A stretch of DNA of 64,000 nt, from IMG/VR virus record IMGVR_UViG_3300031951_000060, positions 1 through 64,000 of that record; one strand, given 5' to 3'. Source of the DNA: a virus. Made by a program: the position numbers and the translations under genes. Every line of letters starts with the position of its first letter. Within the stretch, counting starts at the first letter, position 1. Below are positions 1 to 8,895 of this stretch, one piece after another. The notes beneath the pieces are model-generated. The model saw only the letters and a list, made by a program, of their open reading frames with translations. It ran no database searches and had not been told where the DNA came from.

Positions 1-87
1 CAGGTTACTATAGATGGAGAAACTATATGGACTCCAGTAATAGGAACAATAAATGTACTTGGAGATGTAACGGGAGGTAGTTTATAA
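1..87 (+). CDS. C-terminal end of a fibre-type protein (partial)
   Basis: An open frame enters from the left edge and stops at TAA 85-87, giving the last 28 residues of a protein whose start is outside the window. The tail contains the stretch INVLGDVTGG, which resembles the beta-rich ends of neighbouring fibre proteins. Its stop overlaps the ATG of the next gene (TAATG), so the two are probably translationally coupled. Function cannot be assigned from so short a piece; a fibre or baseplate protein is the natural guess from context. Confidence 0.6.
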   Translation, partial: QVTIDGETIWTPVIGTINVLGDVTGGSL

Positions 88-962
88 TGCCAGTTATTAA
101 GATAGTGCCATTTCCTGGTGTACCAGGCGAAAAAGGCGATAAAGGCGATACAGGAAATACTGGGCCAATAGGTCCAACTGGATTGACTGGTGCGATGGGG
201 CCACAAGGTCCTGAAGGACCACAAGGTGAGCAAGGGATACAAGGTATCCAAGGTATACAAGGAGAAACTGGACCTGCTGGAGCAGATGCTCTTTGGAATT
301 ACACTGGAGCATATAGTGGTGGCTCAGCATATGGCGTCGGAGATCTAGCAACATATGACGGACAACTTTGGTATCGCAAACACGCTAATGGCGGTAATGT
401 TGGAGACACACCATCTGAAGGTTCGTTCTGGGATTTACTTGCAGCAAAAGGTGCAGATGGCGCACAAGGTCCTCAAGGAGAGCCAGGACAAGATGGTTCA
501 ATAGCAAATCTTAAATTTGGATCTTTTTTTGATACAACAATTCAGCCAGGTGGCGCTATTTCTCCTATATCCTTAAACTCTACAGATTTTTCAAACGGAG
601 TAACAATTGTAGATGGTTCAAGAATAACAATGGATACTTTGGGAATTTATAATATTGCATTTAGTTTACAATTAGAAAAAACTGGTGGATCTTCAGCAGA
701 TGTTTATATTTGGATGAGGCATAATGACGTGGATGTTCCAGATACAGCAACAATTATTCACATGGCTAATAATAATACTTACAATGTTGCTGCGTGGAAT
801 TTCTTTGTAAATTGTGACGTTCTACCTCAAGACTTTCAGTTGATGTGGTACACAGCAAGCACAAATGTTTCTATTTCTGCCATTAATGATGCTGGTACTC
901 CAGTTGGAGTTCCTTCTATACCGTCAATTATTGTGACAGTAAATAAAGTCGGGGATCTGTAA
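87..962 (+). CDS. Collagen-like fibre protein with CBM-like insert and C1q-like head
   Basis: A 291-residue modular protein, presumably a trimeric virion fibre. Residues 11-67 are 19 uninterrupted Gly-X-Y triplets, the collagen triple-helix signature. Residues about 70-120 (NYTGAYSGGSAYGVGD, then LWYRK) look like the aromatic-rich carbohydrate-binding module 5/12 type found in chitinases and phage fibres. A second short Gly-X-Y run follows (about 121-137), and the last 150 residues form a beta-rich domain with the SRITMDTLGIYNIAF pattern typical of C1q/TNF-like or BclA-like trimeric heads. The order collagen, sugar-binding module, collagen, globular head suggests a receptor-binding spike. Most prolines are in the X position of the triplets, with few in Y. 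Collagen assignment is direct; the CBM and C1q calls are pattern recognition. Confidence 0.85.
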   Translation: MPVIKIVPFPGVPGEKGDKGDTGNTGPIGPTGLTGAMGPQGPEGPQGEQGIQGIQGIQGETGPAGADALWNYTGAYSGGSAYGVGDLATYDGQLWYRKHANGGNVGDTPSEGSFWDLLAAKGADGAQGPQGEPGQDGSIANLKFGSFFDTTIQPGGAISPISLNSTDFSNGVTIVDGSRITMDTLGIYNIAFSLQLEKTGGSSADVYIWMRHNDVDVPDTATIIHMANNNTYNVAAWNFFVNCDVLPQDFQLMWYTASTNVSISAINDAGTPVGVPSIPSIIVTVNKVGDL

Positions 963-972
963 AGATTGAGCC

Positions 973-1692
973 ATGGCTGTATCTAAATCCATGGACTTTC
1001 CTACAGGTAAAAAATCTAGTTATGCCGCACAGGTAGTCGAAACTCAAAATGTTAACACAGATGTATTAATTAACTATGTGCCCGTTCCAGGGCCTATGGG
1101 GCCACAAGGACCGCAAGGGGTACCTGGACCTATGGGGCAGTCTGGAAAAGACGGAGAAAGAGGTCCTAAAGGCGATAGAGGGGCACCAGGAAAAGACGGT
1201 CAAAGTTCTTTGTCAGCATCTGGACAGCAGTCTGGTTGGGGTGCATATTTTAATTCTATTAAGAAAGAGATAAGGCTAGGTGCAGACAAAGGTGAAGACG
1301 GATGGGTTAGTGTCTGGGTAGATTCGAAAGGAATTAATACAAACCAAAAATACTTACCAGAAGAATGTACAAGTCTGTGGAATGCAGACCAAAGAATGCT
1401 TAATTTTCATGGGTTAAAAATAGGATCTCAGGTTTTTGTAACTTATAACTTTGAATTAACAACGTATAGTAATAATACAGAGGTTTGGATGAGAACATTT
1501 TTTCCTAAATCTACCACCGAAATTTCGCAGTTTGTGGCGTCTCTAAAATACCAATATGTTTATAATATGTATGTCACTCAGCATTTCTTTATTGAAAACA
1601 ACACTATGTGGTCAGCAGGTGCAATTCCACAGATTCGAACCGACTATGAATCTTCAGTTTTAATGAATTCTATATATGTATCTGTGATATAA
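973..1692 (+). CDS. Second collagen-like fibre protein
   Basis: A 239-residue protein with a 36-residue N-terminal region (virion attachment, by inference), 13 Gly-X-Y triplets at about residues 40-78 (GPMGPQGPQGVPGPMG and following), and a C-terminal beta-rich globular domain with many Tyr, Phe and Trp residues. The collagen run is rich in charged triplets (GKD, GER, GDR), which stabilise bacterial and phage collagens lacking hydroxyproline. It sits 10 bases after the first collagen-like gene and has only a weak ribosome site. The globular end is not obviously related to that of the first protein, so the pair look like two fibres or two parts of one adhesion device rather than a simple duplication. 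Confidence 0.8.
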   Translation: MAVSKSMDFPTGKKSSYAAQVVETQNVNTDVLINYVPVPGPMGPQGPQGVPGPMGQSGKDGERGPKGDRGAPGKDGQSSLSASGQQSGWGAYFNSIKKEIRLGADKGEDGWVSVWVDSKGINTNQKYLPEECTSLWNADQRMLNFHGLKIGSQVFVTYNFELTTYSNNTEVWMRTFFPKSTTEISQFVASLKYQYVYNMYVTQHFFIENNTMWSAGAIPQIRTDYESSVLMNSIYVSVI

Positions 1693-1693
1693 T
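1685..1693 (+). promoter_or_regulatory. Extended -10 element TGATATAAT
   Basis: Perfect TG-n-TATAAT overlapping the stop codon of the upstream fibre gene, 15 bases before ATG 1709. A strong ribosome site (GAGGAGG) lies between it and the start. No convincing -35 box. Confidence 0.5.
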
Positions 1694-1708
1694 TTACGAG
1701 GAGGAACT

Positions 1709-2125
1709 ATGGCATTTCCAGGAACATACAATATTTCATATTACAAGGGTGACACCCACGAGTTTCGTATTTACCCCAAAACAGCAGATGGAGATGTTTT
1801 TGATCTTACCCCATATGTAGGTGGAGACTATGATGACGATAATAATCCAGGAACTCCAGTTGTTGACGCAGACGCCGTAGTTTTTTCTTTTTCAGAAAGC
1901 AGAGGGGCCTCAAATCCTCATAAATGTTTTGCACAAATATCTGAGGATAAGACTTACATAACTTGTGTCATTAGACCAGAAGATTCTCAATACTTAACTG
2001 CAGGAACTAATTATGTATATGACGTACAAATATTTAAACCAGCAAGTGGATCTATAACATATCCAACGATCCATACTTTACTTACTGGTAATATCACTGT
2101 AACTGGACAGGTATCGCAGTGGTAG
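1709..2125 (+). CDS. Baseplate/fibre adaptor protein, BppU N-terminal-like
   Basis: A 138-residue protein with no signal peptide. The start has a strong ribosome site, GAGGAGG, six bases upstream. The pattern YYKGDTHEFRIYP near residue 12 followed by alternating beta-strands and a closing ITVTGQV strand resembles the N-terminal beta-sandwich of phage baseplate upper proteins (BppU family), used to dock fibres to the virion. A second protein at 9534-9938 has the same pattern (IVRGDTASFKVYV), so the two are probable paralogues, each heading one fibre block. Assignment is by pattern only. Confidence 0.55.
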   Translation: MAFPGTYNISYYKGDTHEFRIYPKTADGDVFDLTPYVGGDYDDDNNPGTPVVDADAVVFSFSESRGASNPHKCFAQISEDKTYITCVIRPEDSQYLTAGTNYVYDVQIFKPASGSITYPTIHTLLTGNITVTGQVSQW

Positions 2126-2709
2126 ATGTTCTTTTAGCAAGCGATGATTTAGTTGTTCTTGGAGGTCCAGAAACTGTAAATGTTGAAGTGGATTTCGGAC
2201 AAAAAGGAGATAGGGGCAGTCTGGTTTTTGTAGGAAATCAAAAACCAATTGATGATCCAGAAGATTTTAAAGACTTAGTTGGTCAAACTCCAAACATATT
2301 TGATTTATATATAAATTTATTAACAACTGATGATGAATACCTAATGATATATCAGTATGTAGAAGTCTTAGGGGCAAAACAGTGGCAAACTCTTACAAAG
2401 TTAATTCCTAATACTTATGTTACCAATCAAAATATTGATTTTACTACATCTAATTATTGCCATATTCCAATTGCATCAATAGTTGATCCATCTTATGTTG
2501 GTAATACAAATGCATCCAATTTTAGTGTTCAGGCAACATTTAGTACATCAGCAGGATATCCAATTGTTAGTTCTATAAAAGTAGAAGTAGTGTCTTTAAG
2601 TGGTATTCAAAATTTAAAAATAACGTTTTATGCAAAGGAATTTGACGGAACCAATTGGGTTGATATCTCTGGATCCAGAACGGCCAACCTTCATATTTCA
2701 GTGGTATAA
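2119..2709 (+). CDS. Fibre protein with short Gly-X-Y remnant
   Basis: A 196-residue protein beginning at GTG 2119, which overlaps the TAG of the preceding gene, so translation is likely coupled. It has a short docking segment, then GQKGDRGS (residues about 27-34), a remnant of collagen triplets, then a middle part resembling the linker seen in other phage fibres (FVGNQKPIDDPEDF), and a C-terminal beta-sandwich ending in LHISVV. It may be a fibre whose collagen stalk has been lost, or a partner of the longer collagen-like proteins upstream. No enzymatic motif was seen. Confidence 0.55.
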   Translation: MVDVLLASDDLVVLGGPETVNVEVDFGQKGDRGSLVFVGNQKPIDDPEDFKDLVGQTPNIFDLYINLLTTDDEYLMIYQYVEVLGAKQWQTLTKLIPNTYVTNQNIDFTTSNYCHIPIASIVDPSYVGNTNASNFSVQATFSTSAGYPIVSSIKVEVVSLSGIQNLKITFYAKEFDGTNWVDISGSRTANLHISVV

Positions 2710-2710
2710 T
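2702..2710 (+). promoter_or_regulatory. Extended -10 element TGGTATAAT
   Basis: TG-G-TATAAT formed partly by the last codons and TAA of the upstream gene, 17 bases before ATG 2727. The same arrangement occurs at 1685 and 50955. Confidence 0.45.
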
Positions 2711-2726
2711 CAAAGGGGTGGTTTAA

Positions 2727-3377
2727 ATGGCAGTAGAAAATATTGGTGGTCTATACAATACTAAGCAGCCTGGATACGAAGATGCTGCAGATATACAAGC
2801 AGCACTAAAGGCTTTTCTTTATGGTAGTTATACCTATGACACTACAAGCACAGATCCTACACAACTGCCAAACCCCTCTTTAGCAAGACATCTTCAAGAT
2901 CTGAGAGATGATGTAACATTTTTAGAAAACCAGGGAATTGGATCTGATTATTTAACTTTAGCCCAAATTGCAGCAATAGTATCTCCTACTGATGGCTATA
3001 TTGCTATGGCATCAGATTCTAATGGTGGAGCAGTTGAATCCTTATATGCCTCCGCTTTTTATACAAATGAGGCACCCACAACAGATATAGTAGATGGAGT
3101 TCTTTGGGTAGACAAGGATTCCGCAGCACTTGATACATATGTTTATGACTCAACACTTTTACCAGGGGACCCATGGGTAAGAATCAATGATCTTAAGAAT
3201 ATTATTCAGGCAAAGGGTGATATACTTATCGGCAGTTCTGCTGAAAATGTTGACAATTTGTCTGTAGGCGCAAATGGAACAGTTTTAACTGCAGACGACT
3301 CAAGTCCACTTGGTGTCAAATGGCAACAGGTAGATACTGAGTCTATTATAATTTCATCCGTAATGGGTGCGTATTAG
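2727..3377 (+). CDS. Phage fibre protein, uncharacterised
   Basis: A 216-residue protein with an upstream AAGGGG ribosome site. The N-terminal third (IGGLYNTKQPGYEDAADIQ) looks like a helical attachment segment; residues about 95-160 contain AMASDSNGG and DGVLWVDKD, motifs common to fibres that alternate short beta units; the end carries KGDILIGSSAENVDNLSVG, the familiar repeat of bacterial and phage fibre tips (KGDLLVGT...NVTRLSVG). That last motif is the strongest evidence for a fibre role. The exact function and target are unknown. Confidence 0.6.
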   Translation: MAVENIGGLYNTKQPGYEDAADIQAALKAFLYGSYTYDTTSTDPTQLPNPSLARHLQDLRDDVTFLENQGIGSDYLTLAQIAAIVSPTDGYIAMASDSNGGAVESLYASAFYTNEAPTTDIVDGVLWVDKDSAALDTYVYDSTLLPGDPWVRINDLKNIIQAKGDILIGSSAENVDNLSVGANGTVLTADDSSPLGVKWQQVDTESIIISSVMGAY

Positions 3378-3385
3378 GAGGAGAT

Positions 3386-3688
3386 ATGGCTACTACACCA
3401 AAATTAATGTATCGTGGAAATGCAGCAACATCTAACACCACACTTTATACAGTTGGTTCTGGAAAAACTGGAATTGTTACTGATATCGTTGTAACAAATA
3501 CAGATTCTGTGTCTGCTACTTTTACAATTAATCTTAATGGTACCGCTTTGCTTTCTGCAGCAACAATCGCAGCAAATAGCATGGCAACTTTTGAATTAAA
3601 ACAAGTATTAGAAGCAGCAGATACTATTTCTGGTTCTGCATCTGCTACTACTGTTAAATTTCATATAAGCGGAGTTGAGGTTGTCTAA
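3386..3688 (+). CDS. Small beta-sandwich virion protein
   Basis: A 100-residue protein rich in Thr, Ala and Ser, with a strong AGGAGGAG ribosome site. Alternating strands (YTVGSGKTGIVTDIVVTN, FTINLNGTALL) match small beta-sandwich proteins that many phages carry among tail fibre genes. No catalytic residues or membrane segments are visible. The stop overlaps the next start as TAATG. A structural or decoration role is likely from context only. Confidence 0.5.
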   Translation: MATTPKLMYRGNAATSNTTLYTVGSGKTGIVTDIVVTNTDSVSATFTINLNGTALLSAATIAANSMATFELKQVLEAADTISGSASATTVKFHISGVEVV

Positions 3689-4290
3689 TGGCTTATTCCG
3701 TATACCCCGCACCTAGTTCTGGAATAACAGTCTCAGATGGAAACAATGCTGGTTGGAATCTTGGAGAAACTCAATGGGAGCAAATCTCTGAGTATAAAAA
3801 TGCAACAACTGTTGCTAATATAGATTTTTCTAGTATTCCGCAAACCTATAGAGGTTTAAAGTTGCAAATTGTTGGGTTAACTTTGTCAACTGCTGATCAA
3901 GTTTATTTAAGAATTAATAATGATTCTACTGTTAGCACTTATTCAAGATTTGGAAGAGCAGAAAGATCAAATAATAGTGGAACTATAACAGTAATACAGC
4001 AACATTCTCAAAACAAAATACAATTAAACGGAGATCAAAATGTAGAGTCAGGAAATACTTTTCATTGTTTCATACATTTTCCAAATTATACATCTTCTAA
4101 TGTTAAAAAACTTGAGTGGAACTCATATTATCAAACCGCAGTTGGAGCAGAAACTTTTTCTGCAGAGGGCACTTTTAGAAAAGGAACAACAACCCCAGCA
4201 ATAACATCTTTGAGATTACTTACCAATAGTACTAATATGTATTTTGATGGTAATGAGGCATTATCTGCATCATTGTGGGGTATAAAGTAA
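3688..4290 (+). CDS. Fibre-associated beta-rich protein
   Basis: A 200-residue protein of mostly beta character, coupled to the preceding gene through TAATG. The central segment ([20 protein letters not shown], residues about 44-63) and the closing [18 protein letters not shown] resemble a jelly-roll-like domain found in many phage fibres and hypothetical structural proteins. It lacks Cys except one and has no coiled coil. A receptor-contact domain of the fibre cluster is the best guess. Confidence 0.5.
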
Positions 4291-4291
4291 A

Positions 4292-6028
4292 ATGTCAACA
4301 GTTAGTTCAACCAGTAAAGTAGCATACATGTATGACCAAGCGTCAGACACTTGGTATGCTGTTGCTGGTACTGCTAACACAAATGTTGCATATAACTGGA
4401 ATGCTGCTCATACTTTTGGATCTGTTGTAACTGTTAATGATGTTATTCGTGCCAAGGGTGGAGTAAATAGATTTCAAAACCCTACCGCCAGAAATACAAT
4501 AATCCCATCTCCTGTTAAAGGTACAGTTTGTTTTGTTGAGCAAACAGACGGCGGTACTGATATTAACCAAGTTCAAATTTATAACGGCACATCATGGGTA
4601 GGAATGTTAGATACCGAAACCCTAGTAACAAAAACTTCTGATTATACTTTAGGTCTTGCAGATGCAGGAAAAACTATTCTTGTTGATTCGACTCTATCTA
4701 GAAACATCACTATTCCAACAAATTTGTCTGTTCCATTTGCAATTGGACAAACCTTAAAAATAAATAGGCTAAATACTGGCGCTGTAAATATAGTAGGCTC
4801 ATCTGGAGTTATTATAAATAGTAGACAGGCTTCGACATCGATTGCAGAAAGATATGGAGTTGTAACTCTTATAAAAACAGATTCTGATACTTGGCTATTA
4901 TATGGCGACCTACTTCTTTCTTCTTCTTTTATTTCAACACCTACCCCTACCCCAACACCTACTCCTACTCCTACTCCAACAATAACTCCAGCACCTACCC
5001 CAGCACCTACCCCAGCACCTACCCCAGCACCTACACCTACTCCAACATCAGCACCAGAACCAACACCAACACCAACACCGACACCGACACCAACACCAAC
5101 ACCAACACCAACACCGACACCAACACCAACTCCAACACCAACCCCAATTCCAACAGTAACCTGTGGATCTCAATATGGAACGACTACTGGAGGAGTTTAT
5201 AGCGGATCATGTCCAGATGGGTCATGTCCAGGATGTACTCATTATCAAGAAGCCTGGTATAAGTGTTCTGACGGAACTACAAGTTCTACTAAGATATATG
5301 TTGGACTTGGATGTTCTACCCCAACACCAACCCCAACTCCGACTCCTACACCAACAACAAATTGTACTGATACAAGTCTTTTGTCTTCATCTCAGTGCGC
5401 TGACTGTGGTATGGTTTGGAGTCCTTTGTATGGTGAATGTATTTATGAATCATCGCCAACACCAACACCAACACCTACCCCAACACCTACACCAACACCT
5501 ACACCTACACCTACACCTAATCCATGCTCTGGAGATATTTCTCTTCTTGGCCCAAGTGCGTGTCAGTCTTGTGGATATTATTATTCAACCCAATTTGGAG
5601 AATGTATTGATATGCCTTCTCCAACCCCAACACCAACCCCAACACCAACCCCTACTCCTACCCCTACACCAGCACCGACACCTTCGCCTTGTGTTGCAGG
5701 CTCATGGGCATATTCTGAAACACCATGCCAAGATGGAACAGAATATGGATATAGATATAATGCAGACTGCAGTATGTATTGGTCAACAAGATCTTGTTCA
5801 AGTTCCCCAGCGCCTACCCCAGCGCCTACCCCAGCACCAACTCCAGCGCCTACCCCAGCACCAACTCCAGCGCCTACCCCAGCACCAACTCCAGCGCCTA
5901 CCCCAGCACCAACTCCAGCGCCTACCCCAGCACCAACTCCAGCGCCTACCCCAGCGCCTTGTGAGTGCGTAATGGATGAATGTTGGATGGGATGTCCTGC
6001 ATGCTGTAATGGTCAGTGCGGATGCTAA
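4292..6028 (+). CDS. Pro-Thr/Pro-Ala-rich, cysteine-rich modular fibre
   Basis: A 578-residue protein unlike its neighbours. Residues 1-210 form a conventional fibre domain ([19 protein letters not shown], ending WLLYGDL), related to the C-terminus of the fibre at 12821-14482. From about 216 on, long linkers of strict Thr-Pro or Ala-Pro-Thr-Pro alternate with five small cysteine-rich modules: about 290-340, 357-387, 411-440, 466-505 and 556-578. Modules two and three are duplicates with spacing CX10-11CX2CX10C. The linkers resemble mucin-like or plant arabinogalactan/extensin glycomodules. The protein is followed within 1.4 kb by a prolyl-hydroxylase-like oxygenase and a hydroxyproline-type GlcNAc-transferase, making it the best candidate substrate. 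No signal peptide, so it should reach the outside as part of the virion. Length of the linkers is probably unstable. Confidence 0.8.
4939..5157 (+). repeat. Thr-Pro codon repeat
   Basis: Degenerate 6-base repeat (ACN CCN) coding a long Thr-Pro/Ala-Pro linker in the modular fibre. Shorter linkers of the same kind occur at about 5320-5360, 5457-5520 and 5620-5690. Codons vary between ACA, ACC, ACT and CCA, CCT, CCG. Confidence 0.85.
5808..5958 (+). repeat. 24-bp tandem repeat coding (Pro-Ala-Pro-Thr)n
   Basis: About five nearly exact copies of a 24-base unit, each coding two Pro-Ala-Pro-Thr tetrads, with one shorter copy at each end. Unlike the Thr-Pro linkers, the copies keep the same codon pattern (alternating GCGCCTACC and GCACCAACT), which implies recent expansion by slippage or recombination. 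Confidence 0.85.
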
Positions 6029-6033
6029 CTTAG

Positions 6034-6041
6034 TGTATAAT
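6034..6041 (+). promoter_or_regulatory. -10 element TGTATAAT
   Basis: TATAAT at 6036-6041 directly preceded by TG, in the 30-base gap before ATG 6059. An AAGGAG ribosome site lies downstream of it. No clear -35. Confidence 0.4.
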
Positions 6042-6058
6042 GTATAAAAAGGAGAAAA

Positions 6059-6496
6059 ATGGCCAAATTTGCATTCGTAGTAAATAATTCAGTGAAATAT
6101 GTTCTTTCACTTACTTCAGATTCAGAAGTTAATAATAAATGGATTGCTGCCTTAAAATCTGATATTGTTTTTAAAGATGCATCGTTAAACTATGGACTTG
6201 CTCCGTTAGATTTATTTATAGATAATAAATTTTATAAAAATAATAACGGTAACTTGGTCGAAGTTGTTGAAAATGAAGACTGGCAAAACTCAGATGCCAT
6301 TAGAATTGCAGGAATTATAGATGGAGAGGTGATTGGCATGAGAATAATAAATAAAGATGCCTTTTCAGAAGAAGATTTGCAAAGAATTGTAGATGCTTTC
6401 TTGTCAAATTCATCTATCATTGAGATAAGTGAAGATTCTCAGGTATCCATAGGATGGAACTGGGATGGCGACAATTTTTCAGAACCGAGCAATTAA
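6059..6496 (+). CDS. Uncharacterised 145-residue protein
   Basis: Begins after an AAAGGAG ribosome site. It is acidic, with an N-terminal part containing FAFVVNNSVKYVLSL and a C-terminal part with two short helices (EEDLQRIVDAFL) and an odd aromatic end (IGWNWDGDNF). Tryptophan-ended small proteins of this style are often fibre-assembly or fibre-associated proteins in marine phages, but no family was recognised. It is the first gene of a coupled set 6059-7331 (TAATG overlaps with the next gene, which in turn overlaps the oxygenase), so it may belong functionally to the modification enzymes downstream. Confidence 0.45.
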   Translation: MAKFAFVVNNSVKYVLSLTSDSEVNNKWIAALKSDIVFKDASLNYGLAPLDLFIDNKFYKNNNGNLVEVVENEDWQNSDAIRIAGIIDGEVIGMRIINKDAFSEEDLQRIVDAFLSNSSIIEISEDSQVSIGWNWDGDNFSEPSN

Positions 6497-6735
6497 TGTC
6501 TGAAGAATTATCAGCATGGCAAAAATATAAACAAAATTTAGGAGAAACCAGGCCATGGGATTTGGTAAATCCTAATAGTGAATGGGTTTCAGAAGAAGTG
6601 TCTTCTTCACGTTATGAAATATGCAAGGCATGCCCAGAATTGATAAAATTAACCAAACAGTGTAAAAAGTGTGGATGCTTCATGTATGCAAAAACTAGAT
6701 TAGAAAAAGCAACTTGTCCGATAGGAAAATGGTAA
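6496..6735 (+). CDS. Small zinc-ribbon protein, DUF6171-like
   Basis: A 79-residue protein. The chosen ATG 6496 overlaps the upstream TAA (TAATG). An upstream in-frame start exists at 6454 but would sit inside the preceding gene. Cysteines at 43, 46, 56, 59, 61 and 74 form CKAC, CKKCGC and ATCPIGKW, the pattern of a small phage zinc-binding family seen next to 2-oxoglutarate oxygenases and glycosyltransferases in aquatic phages. Its stop again overlaps the next start (TAATG at 6733-6737), so it is probably made in step with the oxygenase. Precise role unknown. Confidence 0.65.
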   Translation: MSEELSAWQKYKQNLGETRPWDLVNPNSEWVSEEVSSSRYEICKACPELIKLTKQCKKCGCFMYAKTRLEKATCPIGKW

Positions 6736-7331
6736 TGAATAAAATCGAAATTGCTCCAGGAATAATGATTTACAAAGATGTAATAGATGGATACGAGTCT
6801 ATCATTACTGATATAGAGGATGCTGTATTATTAAAGTCAGCATCATGGTCCCCTGCAGGAGTAAAAAGTGGAGAGCAGAATGGGGTAGATACAACCAAAA
6901 GAGATACTCTAACTATAGGTATTCCATATTCTGCAACGCCACAAGAAGATTTATCTAGTCCCTCTAAGGCGTTTTACTCTATTCTGGGCGGTATATTCTT
7001 TAATGCTTTTGATCCAGTAGAAAAAGATTATGCAAGAACTTATATGATTGATCTCCCATGGCATGACACATATGGAATACTAAAATATGGTGTGGGGCAA
7101 AAATTTGTAAACCATATAGACGATCATACAGATTATCACAGAAGAGTGTCTTTTGTATATTATTTAAATGATAACTATACTGGAGGAGAAATTAATTTCC
7201 CAAGATTTGATATATCGTACAAACCAAAAGCAAATGAAATGTTAGTTTTTCCATCAACATATGTATATAATCATTCTGTATCAGAGGTCACAGAGGGAGA
7301 ACGCTACGCCGTTGTAAGTTGGTTAAGATAG
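6735..7331 (+). CDS. Prolyl-4-hydroxylase-like 2-oxoglutarate/Fe(II) oxygenase
   Basis: A 198-residue enzyme that should use Fe(II), O2 and 2-oxoglutarate to hydroxylate a substrate side chain. The double-stranded beta-helix core shows iron ligands H127-x-D129 (NHIDDH) and H180 (YNHSV), with R190 (ERYAVVSW) placed to bind 2-oxoglutarate; YYLNDNYTGGEINFP and KANEMLVFPS are the usual P4H-like core strands. ATG 6735 was chosen because it overlaps the upstream stop as TAATG; a TTG 21 bases earlier is less likely. Neighbours argue for a protein proline substrate: collagen-like and Pro-Thr-rich fibres upstream and a Gnt1-type GlcNAc-transferase directly downstream. Family assignment is firm; the substrate is inference, since phage relatives may act on other targets. 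Confidence 0.88.
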   Translation: MNKIEIAPGIMIYKDVIDGYESIITDIEDAVLLKSASWSPAGVKSGEQNGVDTTKRDTLTIGIPYSATPQEDLSSPSKAFYSILGGIFFNAFDPVEKDYARTYMIDLPWHDTYGILKYGVGQKFVNHIDDHTDYHRRVSFVYYLNDNYTGGEINFPRFDISYKPKANEMLVFPSTYVYNHSVSEVTEGERYAVVSWLR

Positions 7332-7333
7332 TG

Positions 7334-7342
7334 TGGTATTAT
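7334..7342 (+). promoter_or_regulatory. Extended -10 element TGGTATTAT
   Basis: TG-G-TATTAT ends 7 bases before ATG 7350. Initiation at the usual distance would give a transcript starting at or within a base of the ATG, i.e. a leaderless message. No ribosome site is present between them. Confidence 0.5.
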
Positions 7343-7349
7343 TTATAAT

Positions 7350-8276
7350 ATGTCTACTATATTTATAAGTATTCCTTGCTATCAAGATCCAGAAATATGG
7401 GAAACAGTTTCAAGTTTTTATAATAATGCTACTAATCCAGAAAATGTTTATTTTGGAATTACTAATCAGACAGATTCTCCAGAATTACACAAGGAAATGC
7501 TTTTAAAATTCCCAAATGTACAAATGCATATCTTGGAGCCTGGATCTTTGCCAGGGTGCCAGCCAGCAAGATTAAAGTCCCATGAGTTTTATGATGGGCA
7601 GGACTACTATTTAAACATGGACTCTCACATGAGAGCAGTTAAAGATTGGGATTCTAGGCTAATAGCAGAATTAAATGAAACAAATTTTATATACGGACCT
7701 TCAGTGCTAACTGGATACGTTGCAGGATATGACAAAGATGAATACGGAAAAGATATAATTCCTGAAGTTACATATACTACAGTTTTTAGAATGAATGAAA
7801 AAAATATAAATCATTTTATAAATCATGGCATTCCTCAGTTTATTTCCTTTCCTCATGAAACCAACAAGCCAATACCATCTCCGTACATCTCTGGTCATTT
7901 TTTCTTTACTACTGGTCAAGCAGTTTTAGATTCACCTTTTGTTGAAGATGTATTTTTTACAGAAGAAGAAATTTTTATGGCTGTTAGATTTTTCACTGCT
8001 GGATATAACTTATTTCAACCGACTACAACATATGTGTATCATAGATATGGAAGAAACAATCGTAGACTTTTTTGGGAAGACTTTCCTGAACATTGGTATG
8101 AAAATGATAAAAGGTCAAGAGATTTTGTAAATAATGTTTTACAAAACAATATAATTGATCCTAAAAAGGGATTATTTAATAAAAGAACTTTAGACGAGTT
8201 TGAGGAATATTCTGGAATTAATTTTAGAAAAAGAGCGTTATCAGATTCGGTAATTAAGGGTACATCGTATTTATAA
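7350..8276 (+). CDS. GlcNAc-transferase, Skp1-Gnt1 family
   Basis: A 308-residue GT-A type glycosyltransferase. The start IFISIPCYQDPEIWETV, then YFGITNQ, then CQPARLKSHEFYDGQDYY and LNMDSHMRAVKDWDSRL are the family blocks of Pfam GlcNAc (PF11397); D91-S-H93 is the metal/nucleotide-sugar motif in place of DXD. The founding member, Dictyostelium Gnt1, transfers GlcNAc from UDP-GlcNAc to hydroxyproline on Skp1 after a prolyl hydroxylase has acted. Here the gene lies 18 bases after a prolyl-hydroxylase-like gene. No signal peptide or membrane segment, so it would work in the host cytoplasm during virion assembly. It has no ribosome site and probably a leaderless transcript. It is followed by a terminator, closing the fibre/modification block. 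Family call is strong; sugar and acceptor are inferred. Confidence 0.85.
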   Translation: MSTIFISIPCYQDPEIWETVSSFYNNATNPENVYFGITNQTDSPELHKEMLLKFPNVQMHILEPGSLPGCQPARLKSHEFYDGQDYYLNMDSHMRAVKDWDSRLIAELNETNFIYGPSVLTGYVAGYDKDEYGKDIIPEVTYTTVFRMNEKNINHFINHGIPQFISFPHETNKPIPSPYISGHFFFTTGQAVLDSPFVEDVFFTEEEIFMAVRFFTAGYNLFQPTTTYVYHRYGRNNRRLFWEDFPEHWYENDKRSRDFVNNVLQNNIIDPKKGLFNKRTLDEFEEYSGINFRKRALSDSVIKGTSYL

Positions 8277-8331: not shown

Positions 8332-8895
8332 TTATTGCGGGAATTTACCAATCCATTCTTTTGTCCTTGGTGTTATTCCTTTCCAAGCACTCCAGTTTTC
8401 TCCGCCATTTGACATATGAAATGCGATTTGTGCATTTACAACTGGATTAAACAAGTCTGCATTGTGATCTAGGTCATATTTATTACGACGATCAGGACCA
8501 AGCATTCCGAGCATATTTATCTGGAAAATTCCATAAGAACTGTCTCCAGTTTTAGTATTTCCATTGAATGCAAGTGGTCGACCATTACTTTCTTTTTTAG
8601 CAATAGCCCATGCCTCCTTGAGATTTTGACCTTCAAATCCTACTAATTTAAGTAGTATCTTTAGGTCTTTATCAGATAGAGATGTGGCGTTGTTGTATTT
8701 TTCTAACTGATCTTCTTTAGCCTCAGAAACACTTTTGGCCTCTTTCGAGGCCTCTTTTGTTTCTTCTAGCACGATAGGTTTTATATCGTTTAATCGGTTT
8801 TCAGAAGCATTAGCAGCGTTTGACCAAACGGCAAACATAGCCAATATGCTGAGTGTACCAATGATGTTCTTGTTATTATTCATAAAAGTAATCAT
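8332..8895 (-). CDS. Secreted lysozyme-like (SLT-type) lytic enzyme
   Basis: A 187-residue protein, the only gene on the minus strand. ATG 8895 is chosen because AAGGAGG lies five bases upstream; an earlier in-frame ATG lacks one. Residues 1-30 are a signal peptide (hydrophobic IIGTLSILAMFAVW, cleavage near ANA-S), then a charged helical linker to about 70, then a lysozyme-fold domain: catalytic E102 in AKKESNG, followed by GDSSYGIFQINM, the hallmark of soluble lytic transglycosylase/resuscitation-factor-like muralytic enzymes. The end LSNGG-type motif (MSNGGENWSAWKG) is also family-typical. A secreted enzyme of this kind could serve lysis, or superinfection control. It has its own consensus promoter and a leader hairpin, and a bidirectional terminator at its end, so it is regulated apart from the flanking fibre genes. 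Confidence 0.8.
   Translation of the reverse strand: MITFMNNNKNIIGTLSILAMFAVWSNAANASENRLNDIKPIVLEETKEASKEAKSVSEAKEDQLEKYNNATSLSDKDLKILLKLVGFEGQNLKEAWAIAKKESNGRPLAFNGNTKTGDSSYGIFQINMLGMLGPDRRNKYDLDHNADLFNPVVNAQIAFHMSNGGENWSAWKGITPRTKEWIGKFPQ

Follow-up and report, generated by a model that had tools for sequence, protein, structure and literature searches.

Prolyl 4-hydroxylases (P4H) are linked with sugar enzymes in the hydroxyproline-rich glycoproteins of algae and plants, and in the Skp1 pathway of Dictyostelium and Toxoplasma, where the P4H PhyA is followed by the transferase Gnt1 and N-acetylglucosamine (GlcNAc) becomes attached to hydroxyproline (PMC11570480). Among viruses, the chlorovirus PBCV-1 encodes a P4H, and evidence for 4-hydroxyproline in viral proteins is announced in the title of Eriksson et al. 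1999 (cited in PMC9301287). In the Baltic Sea virome galE ranks third among the most abundant water-column auxiliary genes and P4H is similarly abundant, and its viral use, according to the same study, 'remains cryptic' (PMC9301287). For the 2-oxoglutarate (2OG) oxygenases of cyanophages, modulation of 2-oxoglutarate or DNA repair has been proposed (PMC3037559), as has reprogramming of host metabolism (PMC9602691). In the literature searched we found no description of a bacteriophage virion containing hydroxyproline, a weak negative since subscription journals lay largely outside the search. Here we analyse a gene cassette in which a P4H-like oxygenase and a PF11397 glycosyltransferase stand behind a proline-rich fibre gene, in a window comprising bases 1-64,000 of the 100,597-bp virus record IMGVR_UViG_3300031951_000060, from an uncultured sample. 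The record also contains, at another place, a WhiB gene, and it encodes a capsid protein most similar to those of Streptomyces phages (~42% identity); both suggest that the host is an actinobacterium.

A prolyl hydroxylase-like oxygenase accompanies proline-rich fibres

We consider it probable that the cassette is a virion-modification module, which hydroxylates and glycosylates the fibre encoded in front of it, with the acceptor atom of the sugar left open. Hydroxylation of the fibre linkers is the firmer part of this proposal and appears quite likely in view of the fold and motif of the oxygenase and its co-occurrence with such linkers in relatives. Glycosylation of the same fibre is likely, given the adjacency of the transferase and its likeness to polypeptide transferases.

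The oxygenase spans 198 amino acids (aa) from the ATG at 6735 to 7331 (a 200-aa start at 6729 is possible) and matches PF13640 with an E-value of 1e-18 and 68.4 bits against a cut-off of 27. Residues H127, D129, H180 and R190, the iron triad and the basic 2OG-binding residue, are invariant in 18 relatives. This basic residue is Lys in animal and plant P4Hs and Arg in the window enzyme. The AlphaFold model (predicted local distance difference test, pLDDT, of 90.5) has as its top Foldseek match in the PDB an algal (Chlamydomonas) P4H with a bound (Ser-Pro)5 substrate (PDB identifier 3gze), with an E-value of 5.5e-11 and a TM-score of 0.66, a score which shows the family fold and not the identity of the substrate. 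Among the matches listed, 50 of 50 are prolyl hydroxylases, from algae, bacteria, Dictyostelium (PHD), animals and the chlorovirus PBCV-1. Profile search, residues and predicted structure thus agree with the P4H-like 2OG oxygenase named in the preliminary description, and support the assignment of the window enzyme by fold and motif as a prolyl hydroxylase of predicted activity.

The proposed substrate is a 578-aa fibre protein with an N-terminal domain followed by X-Pro linkers that alternate with small Cys-rich modules. The long Thr-Pro/Ala-Pro linkers first remarked upon in this protein resolve into five X-Pro runs with 91 Pro. The runs are written in mixed codons (CCA 55, CCT 31 and CCG 5 for Pro; ACA 32, ACC 20 and ACT 14 for Thr), which rules out a plain DNA microsatellite as the source of the Pro repeat. 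Being of the TP/AP type, they display the clustered, non-contiguous (Ser/Thr/Ala/Val)-Pro of plant glycomodules. Across relatives, the residue preceding Pro in the runs (~2,640 counted) is T in 1561 cases, A in 490, P in 211, S in 118, F in 93 and V in 69. Linker sequences vary widely (TP, APTPV, VTPA, SPTPP, TTTP) while the periodicity of Pro is kept, a pattern better explained by selection on X-Pro than by descent from a single sequence.

Viral relatives were fetched with the transferase, the P4H and, as neutral neighbours, the lysozyme-like gene and a gene of 148 aa, and are referred to by locus (L) or genome (G) number. P4H matches of at least 150 bits, clustered at 85% identity, gave 52 distinct P4Hs, and a Pro-run open reading frame (ORF) was taken to be one with ten or more Pro spaced by at most 4 residues and lying within 4 kb upstream. 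Such an ORF precedes 42 of the 52 P4Hs; for 135 control genes located in these loci at a distance of more than 6 kb, the figure is 2. Among the ten P4Hs that lack one, two or three are nevertheless accompanied by Pro-rich sequence at a different spacing; the ten include L013 and L016, with PPGFF repeats outside the spacing limit, and L074, with a run of nine. Presence and absence were tabulated for 53 loci that remained after dereplication and whose sequence extends 7 kb or more upstream of the anchor, counting as slot oxygenase, that is, one in the slot between fibre and lysozyme-like gene, a P4H, a member of a second family termed A5 (see below) or others of at least 50 bits. Slot oxygenase and Pro-run fibre occur together in 38 loci, the oxygenase alone in 4, the Pro-run alone in 3 and neither in 8 (Fisher p=7e-5); with a stricter run length of 15 the association is weaker but holds (33/9/3/8, p=0.0025). 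The expected co-occurrence of oxygenase and Pro-run fibres in relatives is therefore observed, and for the P4H we found neither a rule of relatives carrying it without Pro-rich fibres nor a closer likeness to families that do not modify proteins.

The three loci with a Pro-run only are L221 and L263, whose genomes hold 6 and 7 PF13640 genes elsewhere, and L129, which lies on a 13.5-kb fragment. L192 and L120 offer the best natural contrast for a coupling of oxygenase and linker: their orthologous fibre has the N-terminal domain of the window type but Thr-rich linkers and 5.6-6.4% Pro overall, and is found without a slot oxygenase; a search of the 72.7-kb genome of L120 revealed no PF13640 gene. 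A scan of genome contigs returned only distant relatives, among them L275, a phage-like fragment in which a P4H-like gene directly follows a PPFF Pro-run ORF.

Tandem arrays of up to about ten 2OG oxygenases also occur (L029-L034 and the genomes of L221, L135 and L263), mostly behind (PPFF)n fibres; places above the PF13640 cut-off number 6, 10 and 7 in the genomes of L221, L135 and L263, respectively.

Organization of the cassette

The elements named in the preliminary description were all found where it had placed them. The features of the region are as follows.

87-962, + strand: collagen-like fibre protein, 291 aa, Pro mainly in X position (PF01391, E-value 6e-12; phage tail-fibre PHROGs)
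973-1692, + strand: collagen-like fibre protein, 239 aa (PF01391, E-value 1e-6), with homologues across the lineage with or without oxygenase
4292-6028, + strand: Pro-rich fibre, 578 aa, proposed substrate (residues 111-207 match minor tail protein phrog_8780, E-value 5e-16)
4937-5152, + strand: X-Pro run 1, TP/AP, 72 residues
5318-5353, + strand: X-Pro run 2, (TP)6
5453-5524, + strand: X-Pro run 3
5612-5689, + strand: X-Pro run 4
5804-5959, + strand: X-Pro run 5, APTP repeats
6059-6496, + strand: 145-aa ORF between fibre and enzymes (no Pfam match above cut-off; weak phrog_14370)
6454-6735, + strand: small Cys-rich DUF6171-like protein, kept in the cassette (phrog_13558, E-value 1e-15; PF19668, E-value 2e-5, below cut-off)
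6735-7331, + strand: prolyl-4-hydroxylase-like 2OG-Fe(II) oxygenase, 198 aa (PF13640, alignment, model, Foldseek)
7350-8276, + strand: PF11397 GT-A glycosyltransferase, 308 aa (PF11397, alignment, model, Foldseek)
8332-8895, - strand: lysozyme/transglycosylase-like protein, boundary marker (alignment A4 and synteny; lytic function judged from sequence)

The fibre, the 145-aa ORF, the DUF6171-like ORF, the P4H and the transferase lie on one strand, and the lysozyme-like gene on the opposite strand ends the cassette in most relatives. The enzymes had been placed directly downstream of the collagens and the Pro-rich fibre; the order stands, but five ORFs (1709-4290) separate the collagens from the Pro-rich fibre, and the 145-aa and DUF6171-like ORFs intervene between the fibre and the P4H. 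The DUF6171-like Cys-rich domain, a separate protein before the P4H in the window, forms the N-terminal part of a fusion with the transferase in L013 (6803-7987) and L016 (9752-10936).

The fibre of L006 (1550-3262) is near-identical to that of the window but 8 residues shorter inside run 5, a case of close strains differing in repeat length. Four loci, L013 (12388-13707), L016 (7112-9733), L029 (8007-9320) and L258 (5163-8156), have fibres that are rich in Pro or Thr and carry a Hint/intein-like domain (CVEENTLVDT...HNK) at the end, and these ends suggest self-processing fibres, the Hint_2 match in L029 being weak.

The PF11397 transferase and other genes of the fibre slot

The transferase starts 18 bases past the P4H stop codon and matches PF11397 with an E-value of 4e-52 and 178.3 bits against a cut-off of 21. 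In its metal-binding D-x-H motif (D91-S-H93), D91 and H93 are invariant and S92 is conserved in at least 90% of 13 relatives. Gnt1 carries the same DSH motif. Foldseek comparison of its model (pLDDT of 91.6) places polypeptide N-acetylgalactosamine (GalNAc)-transferases of family GT27 in the first 27 matches (best E-value 5e-10), followed by RmlT, TarP, TarS and GlfT2. A PDB sequence search with the transferase or its alignment gave no match. Membership of PF11397 and the DSH motif are thus upheld, and both enzymes of the cassette resemble protein-modifying families. The nearness of the modelled fold to polypeptide GalNAc-transferases makes a protein acceptor plausible, without thereby identifying donor or acceptor. 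No cultured phage with a close homologue of the transferase was found.

In the transferase tree, the clade of the window (window, L010, L011, L015, L012) has an oxygenase directly upstream in 5 of the 5 members in which the preceding gene is visible, while another, well-supported clade joins Thr-rich loci without oxygenase with TP loci that carry one. Two more PF11397 genes of the same genome, at record positions 79797-80861 and 86691-87752, lie beyond the window and at a distance from fibres. A carbamoyltransferase precedes the former by 3.6 kb (G000, 74733-80861), and genes of these two kinds form a directly adjacent pair in Xanthomonas phage XacN1. The same genome also holds, outside the window, a sulfotransferase-like gene (G000, 93690-94220; PF00685, E-value 6e-5).

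Most P4H loci lack PF11397 and have another sugar enzyme, or none, in its place. A sugar enzyme of varying family occupies the slot in 32 of 42 oxygenase loci, and those found are PF11397 transferases, a GT61, GT8-like proteins below cut-off and epimerases. The last include plant-type guanosine diphosphate (GDP)-mannose-3,5-epimerases (PDB identifier 2c59, E-values 3e-89 and 3e-92) in the fibre slot of L021 (13116-14138) and L137 (5419-6441), and one that resembles UDP-glucose 4-epimerase (UDP, uridine diphosphate). GDP-mannose-3,5-epimerases of this kind often adjoin an O-fucosyltransferase (O-FucT)-like ORF (E-value 0.0017, below cut-off); L-galactose decoration is possible.

The ~190-aa A5 family, which belongs to no Pfam family, takes the place of the P4H or stands after it in the fibre slot (L012, 525-1091; L173, 3238-3819; L257, 14498-15088; and others). 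We call it an oxygenase on account of its invariant residues H91xD93...H137, an oxygenase-type PF13532 match of the L012 member, though not a significant one, and proteins from the cyanophages S-T4 and S-SCSM1 that are matched by the A5 profile as well as by that of the P4H. Profile-profile comparison of A5 with the P4H alignment was not significant, and neither a PDB relative nor a cultured phage carrying the family was found. One A5 gene, in the genome of L099 (G024, 71429-71992), has a single in-frame TGA. The PHROG names 'ferrochelatase' (given to A5, among others) and 'DNA endonuclease' on phrog_3531, phrog_2954, phrog_2297 and phrog_274 look wrong, judging by the matches of these families to the P4H domain or A5. 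Other slot genes are radical SAM/SPASM proteins (L019, 10597-11532; L258, 3409-4413), possibly a further peptide-modifying enzyme, and a Cupin/JmjC-like family, FC, found in P4H loci (L175, 7462-8049; L058, 9634-10221; L177, 7516-8088), often where the slot has no recognised sugar enzyme.

Proposed mechanism and competing explanations

According to the proposed module, the P4H would act in the infected cell, before assembly, on Pro residues in the Thr-Pro/Ala-Pro linkers of the 578-aa fibre encoded next to it, and the neighbouring PF11397 GT-A transferase would then add a sugar from a nucleotide-sugar, plausibly UDP-GlcNAc or UDP-GalNAc, to the same linkers. Small Cys-rich modules would thereby be joined by extended, stiff and hydrophilic linkers, a design comparable to that of hydroxyproline-rich glycoproteins in plants. 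We infer the fibre as substrate, the timing and the placement of the sugar from sequences, predicted folds, gene order and co-occurrence. It had been suggested earlier that the phage hydroxylates its own fibre prolines and glycosylates them with GlcNAc; hydroxylation is well supported, but GlcNAc and its attachment to hydroxyproline are not established, for sister transferases stand beside Thr-rich fibres free of oxygenase. Addition of the sugar to hydroxyproline, the likeliest acceptor, can be put forward only tentatively, and its addition to a neighbouring Thr is only slightly less probable, the two being held nearly level because the window clade is always linked to an oxygenase whereas the other clade mixes both kinds of locus; GlcNAc on hydroxyproline, exactly as first suggested, is rather unlikely.

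A number of observations weigh against the proposed module. The sister transferases just mentioned accompany forms of this fibre that are rich in Thr and poor in Pro, PF11397 transferases show no link with Pro-runs when all loci are compared (14/18 versus 27/35), and the GT27 fold matches of the transferase have ~13% identity, with the wall teichoic acid enzymes TarP, TarS and RmlT in the same list. Ten oxygenase loci are without a recognised sugar enzyme, and the P4H loci L106, L114 and L154 have Pro-poor neighbours. A first, cruder table, of P4H alone against 12 Pro in 40 residues, gave a weak association (29/7/11/6), and the final Pro-run measure is post hoc, having been refined after a first look at the data, because VTPA repeats fell below the first cut and many Pro-rich loci without P4H hold A5 in the slot. 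Moreover, the loci share ancestry, so that the counts are not fully independent.

The foremost competing explanation, which we regard as possible but doubtful, is a mucin-like one, whereby the transferase glycosylates linker Thr (or Ser) whether or not Pro is hydroxylated, and the P4H separately stiffens or tunes a polyproline-II linker. The nearest solved folds are indeed those of mucin-type polypeptide GalNAc-transferases, one well-supported PF11397 clade spans both kinds of fibre, and Thr precedes Pro more often than any other residue does. A Thr beside a Pro is a preferred site of mucin-type transferases. Against this stand the oxygenase immediately upstream in all five members of the window clade with that gene in view, and the Skp1 precedent, in which P4H and then GNT1 yield hydroxyproline-linked GlcNAc (PMC11570480). 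It is improbable that the enzymes act instead on host targets, for instance by hydroxylation of EF-Tu or by altering envelope glycans against superinfection, with their place behind the fibre incidental: EF-Tu-binding bacterial P4Hs (PDB identifiers 4iw3, 5v7y) and teichoic acid transferases are among the respective fold neighbours, and the two further PF11397 genes lie away from fibres, but the association of P4H with Pro-runs, the conserved fibre-to-lysozyme slot and the change of linker that accompanies oxygenase loss in L192 and L120 speak otherwise.

Collagen is the classical P4H substrate, and the marine virus fragment L274 has a P4H with a GPP-rich collagen immediately upstream, while S-CAM7 also has collagens nearby. 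In the collagen ORFs of the window (87-962 and 973-1692), however, the 38 triplets have 12 Pro in X against 4 in Y, so that Pro is not mainly in Y of Gly-X-Y, in keeping with the earlier remark that it mostly occupies X. Collagens are, moreover, present in all 11 oxygenase-free loci examined and hence do not explain the oxygenase; it is the linkers rather than the collagens that track with it, as had been foreseen. These two observations rule out collagen as the main P4H substrate in this lineage, and hydroxylation of the collagen-like fibres in place of the linkers is very improbable. Least probable of all, to the point of being hardly credible, is that the oxygenases modulate host 2-oxoglutarate or serve nucleic-acid repair, as proposed for cyanophages (PMC3037559) and repeated since (PMC9602691): the fold matches are prolyl hydroxylases, and both location and linker association would be left unexplained.

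Relationship to known systems

The linkage of fibre and P4H provides a concrete substrate for the P4H genes that recur in phages and viromes, namely X-Pro linkers encoded one to three genes upstream. If the proposed module is correct, structural proteins rich in hydroxyproline, and possibly glycosylated, are made by bacterial viruses in the cytoplasm of bacteria, with consequences for receptor binding, the mechanics of fibres and recognition between phage and host, and many genes now called auxiliary metabolic would be reassigned to virion modification. A wider reading, which we offer as speculative, is that a large aquatic phage lineage, probably of actinobacteria, builds hydroxyproline-O-glycosylated fibres whose decoration is set by interchangeable cassettes, with two or more oxygenase families, transferases of the PF11397, GT61, GT8-like or O-FucT-like types, and GDP-mannose-3,5-epimerase for L-galactose. 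This would be a protein chemistry like that of plants and algae in a bacterial virus. Such cassettes would explain the recurrence of P4H and sugar epimerases as viral 'metabolic' genes.

Among described systems, the algal and plant P4Hs with their hydroxyproline-rich glycoproteins (PDB identifier 3gze; arabinogalactan-protein glycomodules) resemble the cassette in hydroxylase fold, in clustered non-contiguous (Ser/Thr/Ala/Val)-Pro and in linked sugar enzymes, but the phage has no secretory pathway, its transferase is of another family and its product is a predicted one. The Skp1 pathway shares the succession of P4H and PF11397 transferase and the cytoplasmic setting; there, a single hydroxyproline in one regulatory protein is concerned, here tens of linker Pro and a transferase with GT27 fold neighbours. 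The P4H of PBCV-1 (PDB identifier 5c5t) is virus-encoded and a fold neighbour of the window enzyme, but belongs to a eukaryotic algal virus and is not tied to a fibre-transferase cassette of a tailed phage. In actinobacterial phages, such as mycobacteriophages with glycosylated virions (PMC11256854), phage-encoded glycosyltransferases are known, or have been proposed, to act on virion proteins, but there is no prolyl hydroxylase step. Finally, the 2OG-Fe(II) oxygenase families of cyanophages (24 genes in S-SCSM1, which also carries GDP-mannose-3,5-epimerase and O-fucosyltransferase; PMC9602691) include homologous oxygenases near tail-fibre genes; these have so far been read as metabolic, and X-Pro linkers were not seen in the cyanophage stretches checked.

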